Shown piece after piece: positions 23,657-31,242 of a stretch of 64,000 nucleotides of DNA. Under the pieces are notes generated by a model. The model made no database searches. It was not told where the DNA came from and saw only the letters and a program-made list of their open reading frames with translations. The stretch comes from Nitrosopumilus sp. b3 (lineage in GTDB: Archaea; Thermoproteota; Nitrososphaeria; Nitrososphaerales; Nitrosopumilaceae): contig NZ_MU078696.1 of assembly GCF_014078525.1 (NCBI RefSeq), positions 115,873 to 179,872 on the forward strand. The letters run 5' to 3'. A program made the translations under genes and the position numbers. Numbering within the stretch: the first letter of the stretch is position 1; each line of letters opens with the position of its first letter.

Positions 23657-24190
23657 ATGTCATTTGGTGAAGTAGATACTCTCAATATGCTATTTGATAA
23701 ATTACAGAGTTTGTTTGATGAATCTCAAGGCTACTATGAATCTTTTCTAGATACAAATAACATGTACAAAAAGGGTCAGATCAGTGACAAAGAATTCTTC
23801 CAAAAATTAGGTGATTACACCGTAGCCTATTCTGCATTAGAATTCCTTGCAATCAAAGTAATATTTGAAATGAAAAAATCAATGGGATCTGGATCTGGAA
23901 ATACACAGTCTCCAGGCTTGATGCCAGGAATGGCTAATCCTGGAATGATGGCAGGAGGTATGGGTGCACCACCAAGAGCAGGAACTGCACAAAATCCAGT
24001 TGGCGGAGGTCCACCAGGAATTGTATCTGCACAAGAAGCATTTGGAGATGTTGGAACTTTACCATCACCTGATCCGGCATTGATTCCAAGACAAACACCC
24101 CCACAAACTAGTGGTGATGGATGCTCTTCATGTGGTGCTGCATTAAGAGCCAATGCAAAATTTTGTACAAAATGTGGCGCTAAAGCATAA
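23657..24190 (+). CDS. Helical protein with Gly/Met/Pro-rich linker and C-terminal zinc ribbon
   Basis: 177 residues. Helical N-terminal region (1-78), a low-complexity linker rich in Gly, Met, Pro and Ala (80-150), and a zinc ribbon CSSCG...FCTKCG at the end. Unknown function. It faces another zinc-ribbon gene (24218-24574), and a third lies 500 bp upstream. Confidence 0.65.
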   Translation: MSFGEVDTLNMLFDKLQSLFDESQGYYESFLDTNNMYKKGQISDKEFFQKLGDYTVAYSALEFLAIKVIFEMKKSMGSGSGNTQSPGLMPGMANPGMMAGGMGAPPRAGTAQNPVGGGPPGIVSAQEAFGDVGTLPSPDPALIPRQTPPQTSGDGCSSCGAALRANAKFCTKCGAKA

Positions 24191-24217: not shown

Positions 24218-24574
24218 TTATTGTGTTGTACCACATTCAGGACAAAACTTTGCAGTAGCAGATAAACTAGATCCACATTCTGAACAAAACTTTCCATCTG
24301 TCTGCACTTCATTGTATGCATTTCCTACAACTGCTGAACTTCTTACAGCCCCTGATGGTTCATATTTATCATCATCAATTAAGACTGGTTGAAAGTCCTG
24401 CTCTGTCAAATAAGTCATCATTCTTGGAATTCCTTCTCCCTCATTTTTTGGATCTGGCACTGAATCGCCTAGCCAAAATGCAAATCTCATTAGAGTTAAT
24501 TCAGGTGTAGAGAATGCTAAAGTATGTTTTGACATGTAATCTTGTGCAGCCTTTTTGCCGTCAAAAACTTCCAT
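24218..24574 (-). CDS. Small protein with C-terminal zinc ribbon
   Basis: 118 residues. The N-terminal 90 residues (KKAAQDYMSKHTLAFSTPEL; FWLGDSVPDPKNEGEGIPRM) show no known domain. The end has the double CxxC of a zinc ribbon (FCSECG...FCPECG). Convergent with the zinc-ribbon gene at 23657; the two ribbons are similar in sequence. Confidence 0.62.
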   Translation of the reverse strand: MEVFDGKKAAQDYMSKHTLAFSTPELTLMRFAFWLGDSVPDPKNEGEGIPRMMTYLTEQDFQPVLIDDDKYEPSGAVRSSAVVGNAYNEVQTDGKFCSECGSSLSATAKFCPECGTTQ

Positions 24575-27982: not shown

Positions 27983-28648
27983 TTGAGAAATAAAACAATA
28001 GAAAAAAAATACCAAACAGCATTAAATGATTTAATTAATTATTTAAAAAATTCACGATTTTTAAATGATAAAAATGTTGAGGATGCTTTTAGAAATATCC
28101 CTAGACATGAATTTGTTCCAGAATCTGAATTAGATTATGCATATAACAATGAACCACTACTTATCAAGAACAAACAAACAATTTCTCAACCAGGTGTAGT
28201 TTCAAGAATGACTGAATGGTTGGATGTTAGGGAAGGACAAAAAATACTTGAGATAGGTACTGGTTCTGGATGGCAAACTGCTATTCTTTCTTACTTGGTA
28301 GGAGAAGGAACTGTATATTCTGTTGAAAGATATTCTGAACTCGTAAAATTTGCACAAGAAAACCTAAAAAAATTAAACATAGATAATGTTCATGTAATTC
28401 TTGGTGATGACAGTGTTGGATTTGCAAAAGAATCGCCTTATGATAGAATCATTATTACTGCAGCATGTACTGAAATCCCTTTACCTCTAATTGAGCAACT
28501 AAAAGAAGGTGGACTCATACTTGCACCCGTTGGTGATTCATCACAATCATTAGTTTTGTTACAAAAAACATTCAAAGGAATTATTGAAATCAAAAATGAA
28601 TCACATTATGTTTTTGTTCCACTGCGTGGAAAATTTGGGAAAAAGTAA
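27983..28648 (+). CDS. pcm: Protein-L-isoaspartate O-methyltransferase
   Basis: 221 residues. Repairs isoaspartyl residues using SAM. Motif I ILEIGTGSGWQTA, VEDAFRNIPRHEFVP and QTISQPGVVSRMTEWL are PCMT hallmarks; the C-terminal HYVFVPLRG also fits. Start is TTG 27983. Length is normal. Confidence 0.92.
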   Translation: MRNKTIEKKYQTALNDLINYLKNSRFLNDKNVEDAFRNIPRHEFVPESELDYAYNNEPLLIKNKQTISQPGVVSRMTEWLDVREGQKILEIGTGSGWQTAILSYLVGEGTVYSVERYSELVKFAQENLKKLNIDNVHVILGDDSVGFAKESPYDRIIITAACTEIPLPLIEQLKEGGLILAPVGDSSQSLVLLQKTFKGIIEIKNESHYVFVPLRGKFGKK

Positions 28649-28664: not shown

Positions 28665-29495
28665 CTAAACAAATTTTATTGAGCCGTAACCTACTACTGA
28701 TTCTGTATCTCCTGATACATCCCCACTTGTTGCATAGCTTAGAAGTTCCCCTTTTCTAGCACCCAACTTTTTACATGCAATCATCGCTGAAGCCATTGCT
28801 CCATACCCACAGGCGGTTACTCTTTTTTCATACAACACTTGATAAAATCTATCCACATCCAAATCTAAGATGGGTTCTATCAGCGATTTGTCTTGTTGAT
28901 GCGCAAATGAATTTTCTTCATAATGTGTAAAATCAGATGAGGCAATAATTATTGCATTTTTCTTTTTTGCAATTTCATATACTGCATTTCCAACATCCAT
29001 AGCGGCTTTCATGTCTTGTGCACGCAAAATTATGGGAAGAATTTGAAATTCATTTGAAAGTATTCCCTGCAGCATTGGAATCTGTACTTCTAAACTATGA
29101 TCTTGAGAGTGAGAATACTCGTCAATTTCAATAAACTCTGATATTTCTGCTATTTGTTTTGCTGAATCTGAATCTACTTGAACCATCCCTAAAGGTGTCT
29201 TCCATTGTGCATCAATCATGGTAGCAGCATCTTTTCCTACGCCGAAGTGATTTGGTCCGATAATTATTGCAAGTTCAGGATTCTGAGATGAGATGGCCTT
29301 GTAAGAATGACATGCAGTGGGCCCAGAGTAAATATATCCAGCATGTGGGCAAACAATTCCTAAAACCTTCTCTGTTGATTCTATTGAATCTGAACCGGGA
29401 CCAAGATTGTGATTAAAACAAGATTGAATCAGGTTTTCCAAATCCTCTTTTCTATCAGGATAAAACTGACCTGCAACAATCGGCTCTCTGATCAT
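28665..29495 (-). CDS. MEMO1-family protein (AmmeMemoRadiSam system B)
   Basis: 276 residues from ATG 29495; a GTG two codons upstream is less likely. Begins IREPIVAGQFYPDRKEDLE and contains GIVCPHAGYIYSGPTACHSYK, IIGPNHFGVG, SQDHSLEVQIPML and ASSDFTHYE, the His/Asp/Cys metal-site pattern of the MEMO family, related to extradiol-type dioxygenases. It lies 15 bp behind the AMMECR1 gene on the same strand and near the radical-SAM partner. Confidence 0.9.
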   Translation of the reverse strand: MIREPIVAGQFYPDRKEDLENLIQSCFNHNLGPGSDSIESTEKVLGIVCPHAGYIYSGPTACHSYKAISSQNPELAIIIGPNHFGVGKDAATMIDAQWKTPLGMVQVDSDSAKQIAEISEFIEIDEYSHSQDHSLEVQIPMLQGILSNEFQILPIILRAQDMKAAMDVGNAVYEIAKKKNAIIIASSDFTHYEENSFAHQQDKSLIEPILDLDVDRFYQVLYEKRVTACGYGAMASAMIACKKLGARKGELLSYATSGDVSGDTESVVGYGSIKFV

Positions 29496-29516
29496 CAACA
29501 CACTTTACACACTATT

Positions 29517-30137
29517 TTATAAAAAATGATTAGACGATTCTCTGATTATTTCTCCATTAGGTGACTCTTCTTTGAAAATCATTCCTTGAAATCTTGAGAT
29601 TTTAGTTTCTTTGTCTTTCCATGCATCTTTTTCTAGCCCTGCTTTTTGACATGTGTATTCAAGAAATTCTTCTACACTCCAGTTGTACTCTATAGGGACT
29701 TGTGGTAAAAGTAAACCTGATGTAAATGGATTTTCTACGATTAATCCATCTTTTCCAACTTTGATCTCTGTAAGATATTCTGAAAAATTATTCACTTTAA
29801 CTTCTTCTGGAGGAGTGAGAACTGTCACCTCAAAAACAATCTTGTCTAATTCTTCAGGAGTTACTGGACTGAATCGTGGATCTTGAGTTGCAGCAGATAT
29901 TGCAGCATCAACTAGTCCTTTTGATAATTTCATTTCTGGAAGAGGATATCCGATACATCCTCTCAATGAATCTTGTTTGTTTAAAGTAACAAAAACACCT
30001 GAATTAAAATTAAATTTAGAATTAAATGAAGGCTCTTCAATCTTTGAATCATTTCTCAAAAATTCAGTTACAGCTTTTCTTGCCATCATTACTAATTCTT
30101 TACCATCAGAATCAGAAAGTTTCTTTAACTCATTCAT
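29517..30137 (-). CDS. AMMECR1-domain protein (AmmeMemoRadiSam system A)
   Basis: 206 residues. GVFVTLNKQDSLRGCIGYPLP holds the conserved LRGCIG of the AMMECR1 family; DPRFSPVTPEELDKIVFEVTVL and LLPQVPIEYNWSVEEFLEYTCQKAG follow. First gene of a two-gene unit with MEMO. Divergent from the radical-SAM gene with a 34-bp shared promoter region. Molecular function not established. Confidence 0.9.
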   Translation of the reverse strand: MNELKKLSDSDGKELVMMARKAVTEFLRNDSKIEEPSFNSKFNFNSGVFVTLNKQDSLRGCIGYPLPEMKLSKGLVDAAISAATQDPRFSPVTPEELDKIVFEVTVLTPPEEVKVNNFSEYLTEIKVGKDGLIVENPFTSGLLLPQVPIEYNWSVEEFLEYTCQKAGLEKDAWKDKETKISRFQGMIFKEESPNGEIIRESSNHFL

Positions 30138-30171
30138 ACTTGTTAAATACGTAAAAACACAATAAAAAACA

Positions 30172-31242
30172 TTGACAACTTTACTTGGAAAAGAGGCAGA
30201 ACTTTATGAGACATTACCTGATGACAAAGTAAAGTGTACAGCTTGTGCACGTTATTGTGAAATTGGTAAAAGGCAAATTGGTTTATGTGGAATTAGAGGA
30301 AATGAAAATGGAAAACTGCAATTATACGCTTACGGTAAAGTAATTTCAGGTCATGTTGACCCTATTGAAAAAAAACCACTAATTCACTATAACCCTGGTA
30401 GCAAAGTATACTCTATTGCCACAACTGGATGTAATTGGCTCTGTAGATATTGCCAAAATTCTGATATCAGTCAGCGTAGAACTGTTGAAGGAATTGATAT
30501 GACTCCTGATGAAGTTGCAAATACTGCAGTAAAATATGGTGCACATGGAATTGCTTACACATACAATGAACCCTCCATCTTTATTGAATTTGCCCGAGAT
30601 TGTGGAATAGCTGCCAGAAAGAAAGGCTTGTTCAATGTCTTTGTCTCAAATGGATATGATACTCCTGAATCAGTTTCAATGATGAATGAATTTCTTGATG
30701 GAATCACTGTTGATTTCAAAGGAAGCGCAGAAAAAGAATTCACTAGGAAATTTATTGGAGTTCCTGATCCTCAACCAATCTTTGACACTCTTTTAGAAAT
30801 TAGAGATAAAACAAAAATTCATGTTGAAATAACTGATTTGATTGTTCCCAAAGTAGGCGATAATCTAGATCATGCAAGAAAACTTTCAAAATTCATTTAT
30901 GATGAATTTGGACCTGAAATGCCAATTCACTTCTTGAGATTTCATCCTGATTACAAAATGATGGAGTATCCTAGCACTCCTGTTGAAACTTTGGAAAAAC
31001 ATTATCACGTTGCAAAAGATGTGGGTTTGAAGTATGTGTATTTGGGAAATATTCCTGGTCACAAATGGGAGCACACATACTGTTCTGAATGTAACAAAAT
31101 AGTTGTAAATCGTTATGGATTTAGTATACGAGAGTGGCATCTTGATAAGAAAAATTGTTGTGAATTTTGTGGAAATCCAATACCAATAGAGGGTAAATTA
31201 CAAGAAGGATACAAACAAGATCGTTTTCAGTTCGTATCTTAG
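30172..31242 (+). CDS. amrS: AmmeMemoRadiSam-system radical SAM enzyme
   Basis: 356 residues. The N-terminal CTACARYCEIGKRQIGLCG precedes the radical-SAM CX3CX2C (Cys87, Cys91, Cys94; TGCNWLCRYCQ). This resembles pyruvate formate-lyase activases but belongs to the AmmeMemoRadiSam group. The C-terminal end has an additional four-Cys knuckle (CSEC...CCEFCG). Start is TTG. Divergent from AMMECR1-MEMO, completing the triad. Confidence 0.9.
   Translation: MTTLLGKEAELYETLPDDKVKCTACARYCEIGKRQIGLCGIRGNENGKLQLYAYGKVISGHVDPIEKKPLIHYNPGSKVYSIATTGCNWLCRYCQNSDISQRRTVEGIDMTPDEVANTAVKYGAHGIAYTYNEPSIFIEFARDCGIAARKKGLFNVFVSNGYDTPESVSMMNEFLDGITVDFKGSAEKEFTRKFIGVPDPQPIFDTLLEIRDKTKIHVEITDLIVPKVGDNLDHARKLSKFIYDEFGPEMPIHFLRFHPDYKMMEYPSTPVETLEKHYHVAKDVGLKYVYLGNIPGHKWEHTYCSECNKIVVNRYGFSIREWHLDKKNCCEFCGNPIPIEGKLQEGYKQDRFQFVS

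Follow-up and report, generated by a model that had tools for sequence, protein, structure and literature searches.

A complete AmmeMemoRadiSam triad in Nitrosopumilus sp. b3 and a putative exported branch among its relatives

In Nitrosopumilus sp. b3 the genes for MEMO, AMMECR1 and a radical SAM enzyme (rSAM) stand together, and it is possible, with a probability that we put at roughly 0.4, that the three form one enzyme module whose substrate is likelier to be accessible from the membrane or to belong to the envelope than to be a nucleotide or RNA. At the level of sequence the parts, their conserved catalytic residues, their joint inheritance, the fusions between them and the apparent signals for their co-export are all evident. 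A genetic link among the three families, as supposed in the preliminary description of this DNA, emerges from the inheritance, the natural fusions and the co-export signals far beyond chance. The triad matters because it bears on the ancestral biochemistry of the human disease-linked proteins MEMO1 and AMMECR1. To our knowledge humans have no partner rSAM of this family, and eukaryotes have MEMO and AMMECR1 without it.

The three genes and their products

The window (the whole stretch of 64,000 nucleotides that was analysed) carries on its minus strand the genes for MEMO (AmmeMemoRadiSam protein B, 28665 to 29495, 276 amino acids) and AMMECR1 (AmmeMemoRadiSam protein A, 29517 to 30137, 206 amino acids), and on its plus strand the gene for the AmmeMemoRadiSam rSAM (30172 to 31242, 356 amino acids). 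Scores of 306.8 bits for MEMO (TIGR04336, curated cut-off 26 bits), 194.5 bits for AMMECR1 (TIGR04335, 99 bits) and 322.2 bits for rSAM (TIGR04337, 220 bits) all exceed the cut-offs, with Pfam matches to PF01875 (4.3e-83) and PF01871 (1.5e-56) for MEMO and AMMECR1 respectively, and so the set had been rightly placed and rightly named as the AmmeMemoRadiSam system. Window MEMO matches human MEMO1 (3bcz) at 1.6e-15 with phmmer, and window AMMECR1 matches PDB entry 1vaj at 2.2e-51. The triad shares with the NCBIfam system all three members, contiguity and the conserved catalytic residues and differs from it in nothing essential; it is one more example of an already named system, treated by Burroughs and Aravind to go by the citations of their work in PMC7159879 and PMC7694686. 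What is added here comes from relatives and not from the window, namely a Tat/Sec-exported branch and fusions of MEMO with AMMECR1 and of AMMECR1 with rSAM.

MEMO and AMMECR1 are co-oriented with a gap of 15 to 21 bp set by the choice of MEMO start, for which ATG at 29495 is likelier than GTG at 29501, while rSAM starts with TTG at a place where relatives use TTG, GTG or ATG. The rSAM gene diverges from AMMECR1 with 34 bp between the start codons (30138 to 30171). Each of the 15 same-genus cassettes compared has such a spacer, 33 to 34 bp long, in which TTAAATA on the plus strand precedes the rSAM gene and ATAAAA (read as TTTTAT on the minus strand) precedes AMMECR1, and both elements are kept though the AMMECR1 proteins are just 64 to 79% identical to that of the window. 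These AT-rich TATA-like elements, with leaderless spacing in both directions, are probably an overlapping pair of archaeal promoters, as judged from the spacing, and the earlier claim of a 34-bp shared promoter agrees with their conservation. A scan for sigma-70-type promoters gave no more hits than shuffled sequence, as expected for an archaeon. The adjoining pcm gene (27983 to 28648), for protein-L-isoaspartate methyltransferase, was considered as a fourth partner and rejected, being patchy within the genus regardless of the triad.

In MEMO the residues H51 (29343 to 29345), H83 (29247 to 29249) and C229 (28809 to 28811, all on the minus strand) make a 2-His-1-Cys metal site that is conserved in 100% of 114 diverse MEMOs, and the second-shell residues H191 and E136 are likewise invariant. 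Human MEMO1 is a homologue with 2-His-1-Cys iron ligands in common, H49, H81 and C244 (PMC11081632); H51 and H83 lie within the stretch aligned to it, and C229 is equated with C244 by family-alignment position. The human protein binds iron and affects iron homeostasis, and dioxygenase activity was absent with the substrates tried (PMC11081632). Fold and metal pocket are held in common with the protocatechuate/LigB extradiol dioxygenases (PMC11081632), but the 2-His-1-carboxylate iron site of the LigB/PCAD enzymes is not found in MEMO, which has Cys229 and not a Glu ligand, and by further contrast the module of MEMO occurs in strict anaerobes. A third, bacterial class of MEMO (six loci) bears an N-terminal extension of about 110 amino acids or more, which had no Pfam match in the one case tested and by eye is a PqqD-like candidate (DGxHSLRDIQ...).

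AMMECR1, ranked among the top-priority uncharacterised archaeal families (PMC6393860), carries the motif LRGCIG at residues 58 to 63 (29949 to 29966, minus strand), in which G60 and G63 are 100% and C61 94.5% conserved; a Gly-to-Asp change within this motif in human AMMECR1, G177D, is pathogenic (PMC5502304).

Over 48 diverse archaeal and bacterial homologues three sets of Cys residues in rSAM, all encoded on the plus strand, are invariant: an N-terminal four-Cys motif (C22-x2-C25-x3-C29-x9-C39, 30235 to 30288), which the first reading had overlooked, the radical SAM Cx3Cx2C motif (C87, C91 and C94, 30430 to 30453) and a C-terminal four-Cys knuckle (C304, C307, C330 and C333, 31081 to 31170). 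The last is modelled as a zinc-ribbon-like beta-hairpin between two CxxC (block pLDDT about 97 to 98); it had been described as extra, wrongly, for it is a hallmark of the family and no special trait of the window protein. The AF2 model of rSAM (pLDDT 95.9, pTM 0.93) has as its closest solved fold the pyruvate formate-lyase activating enzyme PflA (3cb8, E 1.3e-14, TM 0.79 by target and 0.56 by query), and the NCBIfam models that rank next after TIGR04337 are PflA and other glycyl-radical activases. The core fold is thus in common with PflA, but the window enzyme is about 110 residues longer, the invariant four-Cys motifs at both ends included, and reaches 43 bits against the 231.75 of the TIGR02493 cut-off. 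Among the neighbouring genes, to which the scan was confined, no glycyl-radical enzyme partner was found. In some relatives an intein whose endonuclease region is of the DUF559 type (PF14890, 1.7e-12) splits the Cx3Cx2C motif just before its second Cys, at a site identical at residue level in four families of the order (four loci in as many genomes, and three further carriers).

Joint inheritance, fusions and genomic settings

Among 97 genomes of the window's family with completeness of 90% or more and contamination of 5% or less, out of 142 examined, 72 have all three genes, 23 have none and 2 are without AMMECR1 only. Partial sets thus number 2 where about 54 are expected under independence, a contrast that is no p-value since the genomes are related; weak TIGR04337 matches seen in many genomes (model positions 66 to 200, frames of about 240 amino acids) were taken for different radical SAM proteins, probably QueE-like, and left uncounted. 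Presence and absence alternate inside at least four genera (g1, g30, g31 and g35), and in most genera the three genes are unlinked, lying far apart in four complete genomes (G132 of g30, G043, G057 and G048). Genus g30, in whose complete genome G132 all the genes are unlinked, includes losers of the triad. The supposed co-occurrence of the three families is therefore borne out by the phylogenetic profile, which is all-or-none in the family even without linkage. In a non-exhaustive survey of the literature, from which Burroughs et al. 2019 was absent, no earlier description of such a profile with unlinked genes was found, and it may be new. A triad kept or lost as a unit among close relatives in one archaeal genus and family is a natural experiment, and species with and without it allow a comparison of metabolomes or lipidomes.

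Outside the family, where 50 diverse archaea and bacteria with an rSAM were compared, 48 have MEMO and 44 have AMMECR1, and 8 of 80 rSAM loci have one or the other within about 8 kb. Control genomes include Haloferax volcanii, with AMMECR1 and no MEMO, and Thermus, with MEMO and no AMMECR1, whereas Sulfolobus acidocaldarius and Methanosarcina acetivorans carry the complete set. Holders of the triad include anaerobes (Methanosarcina, ANME-1 and Desulfobacteraceae). A MEMO-AMMECR1 fusion is encoded in 17 of the 50 diverse genomes and an AMMECR1-rSAM fusion in one genome of an Acidobacteriota sample; AlphaFold folds the domains of one natural MEMO-AMMECR1 protein (pLDDT 88) but places them relative to each other with uncertainty (pTM 0.63).

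A mevalonate/isoprenoid operon, rpoN-eno-rpsB-MEMO-mvk-ipk-idi-prenyl synthase-gltX, contains MEMO in the majority of the Nitrosopumilaceae examined and also in several further families of the order. The genomes examined from genus g35 and from the window's own genus, the latter whether they have the triad or not, keep this operon whole except that MEMO is missing from it; in one loser of genus g30 (G101) a gap of 293 bp separates rpsB from mvk, the mevalonate kinase gene, where relatives carry MEMO. Triad MEMO clusters within the family's own MEMO clade, and so a foreign origin is rejected. Since the operon lacks MEMO and the triad MEMO belongs to that clade, the gene has moved to a place beside AMMECR1 and rSAM. 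The cassette occupies several chromosomal positions within the genus with its layout unchanged, and in four genomes that lack it pcm and rpiA flank a cleanly empty site. A Nitrososphaera-like genome (G031) has in its operon a lone, extremely divergent MEMO that has lost H133 and D188 and kept the metal ligands. In genus g35 a gene for a PEFG-CTERM sorting-signal protein (TIGR04296) sits between the rSAM and MEMO genes at two loci.

A putative exported branch

As called by motif and hydrophobicity rather than by a trained predictor, and with MAG start codons being uncertain, 15 of the 17 MEMO-AMMECR1 fusions have an N-terminal hydrophobic or lipoprotein-like signal (that of Thermophagus has none and one other is truncated). 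In those 15 genomes rSAM bears a twin-arginine leader in 11 (for example MNRRSFLKTTGAAGLL and LSRREFLKEACLFCLGTG) and a Sec-like leader in 2, and in 2 a leader was not found. In most of the 15 there is in addition another rSAM that has no leader, and in several a stand-alone MEMO likewise without one, so that, to judge by the signals, one cell would contain an exported set as well as an ordinary cytoplasmic one. A second sample, of Acidobacteriota, gave 7 further Tat-like rSAM leaders; the TIGR04337 rSAMs with twin-arginine leaders are those at loci L280, L284, L285, L267, L288, L295, L299, L378, L382 and L428 to L434, and many are paired with signal-bearing fusions. The twin-arginine motif, the hydrophobic stretch and their position recur across many phyla alongside exported partners, and the exported rSAMs tested score 384 to 396 bits with TIGR04337, above the rSAM of the window. 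The three window proteins start straight at their domains, with no N-terminal export signal.

When 133 rSAM proteins are placed on a tree, 2 state changes account for the 15 exported ones, against a shuffled mean of 14.5, and none of 500 shuffles was as low, and so they are essentially one clade. It covers at least 7 bacterial phyla, with members in Acidobacteriota, Aminicenantota, Latescibacterota, KSB1, Omnitrophota, Elusimicrobiota, Planctomycetota and Thermodesulfobacteriota. Next to the exported forms lie, among others, DsbD-type transmembrane redox proteins and DUF362 proteins, one of which carries 4Fe-4S domains; a large membrane protein that fuses a transporter to a spermidine-synthase domain recurs beside exported rSAM or fusion genes (four loci).

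The chances appear evenly balanced that this is an extracytoplasmic branch, with a Tat rSAM and a Sec or lipoprotein MEMO-AMMECR1 fusion, and that the module substrate occurs on both sides of the membrane and is not nucleic acid; it would then perhaps be a lipid or quinone, or an envelope protein. Counting against such a branch, we know of no extracytoplasmic supply of the SAM and low-potential electrons that an exported rSAM would need. If true, the branch would be an exception to the usual cytoplasmic location of radical SAM enzymes and would exclude most nucleic-acid hypotheses. It may be new: no exported radical SAM enzymes were found in the same non-exhaustive literature.

What the module may do

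On the preferred reading rSAM, AMMECR1 and MEMO would act together on one substrate, in a complex or in succession. The PflA-fold rSAM would use a 5'-deoxyadenosyl radical to functionalise an unreactive C-H, the LRGCIG loop of AMMECR1 may hold the substrate or intermediate and present it, and MEMO, at its 2-His-1-Cys iron site, might process the product as the last step. O2-dependent ring cleavage of the dioxygenase type is not the general reaction of the module, because strict anaerobes (methanogens, ANME-1 and sulfate reducers) hold it. A membrane or envelope substrate, which taken alone has about a one in two prospect of being right, is favoured because a branch of the family is apparently exported and because MEMO lies inside the isoprenoid operon in most relatives; candidates would be an isoprenoid lipid, a quinone or similar. 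Against the isoprenoid link stands the absence of MEMO from that operon in the window's own genus. Species without the triad retain the mevalonate-operon genes, and core lipids therefore do not depend on the module.

The main rival to a module with one substrate is that rSAM works as an activase in the manner of PflA, modifying a residue of MEMO or of AMMECR1 in or near LRGCIG, the modified protein then being the enzyme or regulator. The best solved fold, PflA with a peptide substrate, the next-ranking activase models and the existence of an AMMECR1-rSAM fusion all speak for it, and yet it seems rather unlikely: the score with the PflA model is far below cut-off, and a stable glycyl radical is ill-suited to aerobic ammonia oxidisers. 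LRGCIG is moreover kept in the AMMECR1 of organisms without rSAM, such as the human protein (PMC5502304), and so its conservation does not need rSAM. That MEMO is instead a carrier of iron, or copper, in a module serving metal supply or repair and not a metabolite accords with the properties of human MEMO1 described above (PMC11081632), with the invariance of its three ligands in the MEMOs compared and with the DUF362 and DsbD-like redox proteins that adjoin the exported forms. It leaves unexplained, however, both the requirement for a radical SAM enzyme and the invariant second-shell H191 and E136, and we hold it to be distinctly unlikely.

A modification of a nucleotide base or of RNA by the module has a setting to recommend it, in that AMMECR1 adjoins RNA-related genes (Mut7-C RNase and NFACT) in most of the Nitrosopumilaceae examined, and Burroughs et al. 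2019 (J Biol Chem) reportedly placed Memo in nucleotide-base as well as isoprenoid contexts; but the exported clade would be kept apart from nucleic acids, which makes the proposal very unlikely. Separate roles for three proteins that share loci and genomes by history alone would suit the scarcity of neighbouring MEMO or AMMECR1 at rSAM loci and the genomes in which MEMO or AMMECR1 occurs without other members, but are hardly credible given the two kinds of fusion and, speaking strongly against them, the all-or-none inheritance of unlinked genes and the co-export signals.

Besides the triad enzyme, Nitrosopumilaceae hold a second, paralogous clade of TIGR04337-family rSAM in varied neighbourhoods (ten members). 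Elsewhere in the window two convergent small genes (23657 to 24190 on the plus strand and 24218 to 24574 on the minus strand) have products that share a C-terminal zinc ribbon type (CxxCGxxL...FCxxCG).
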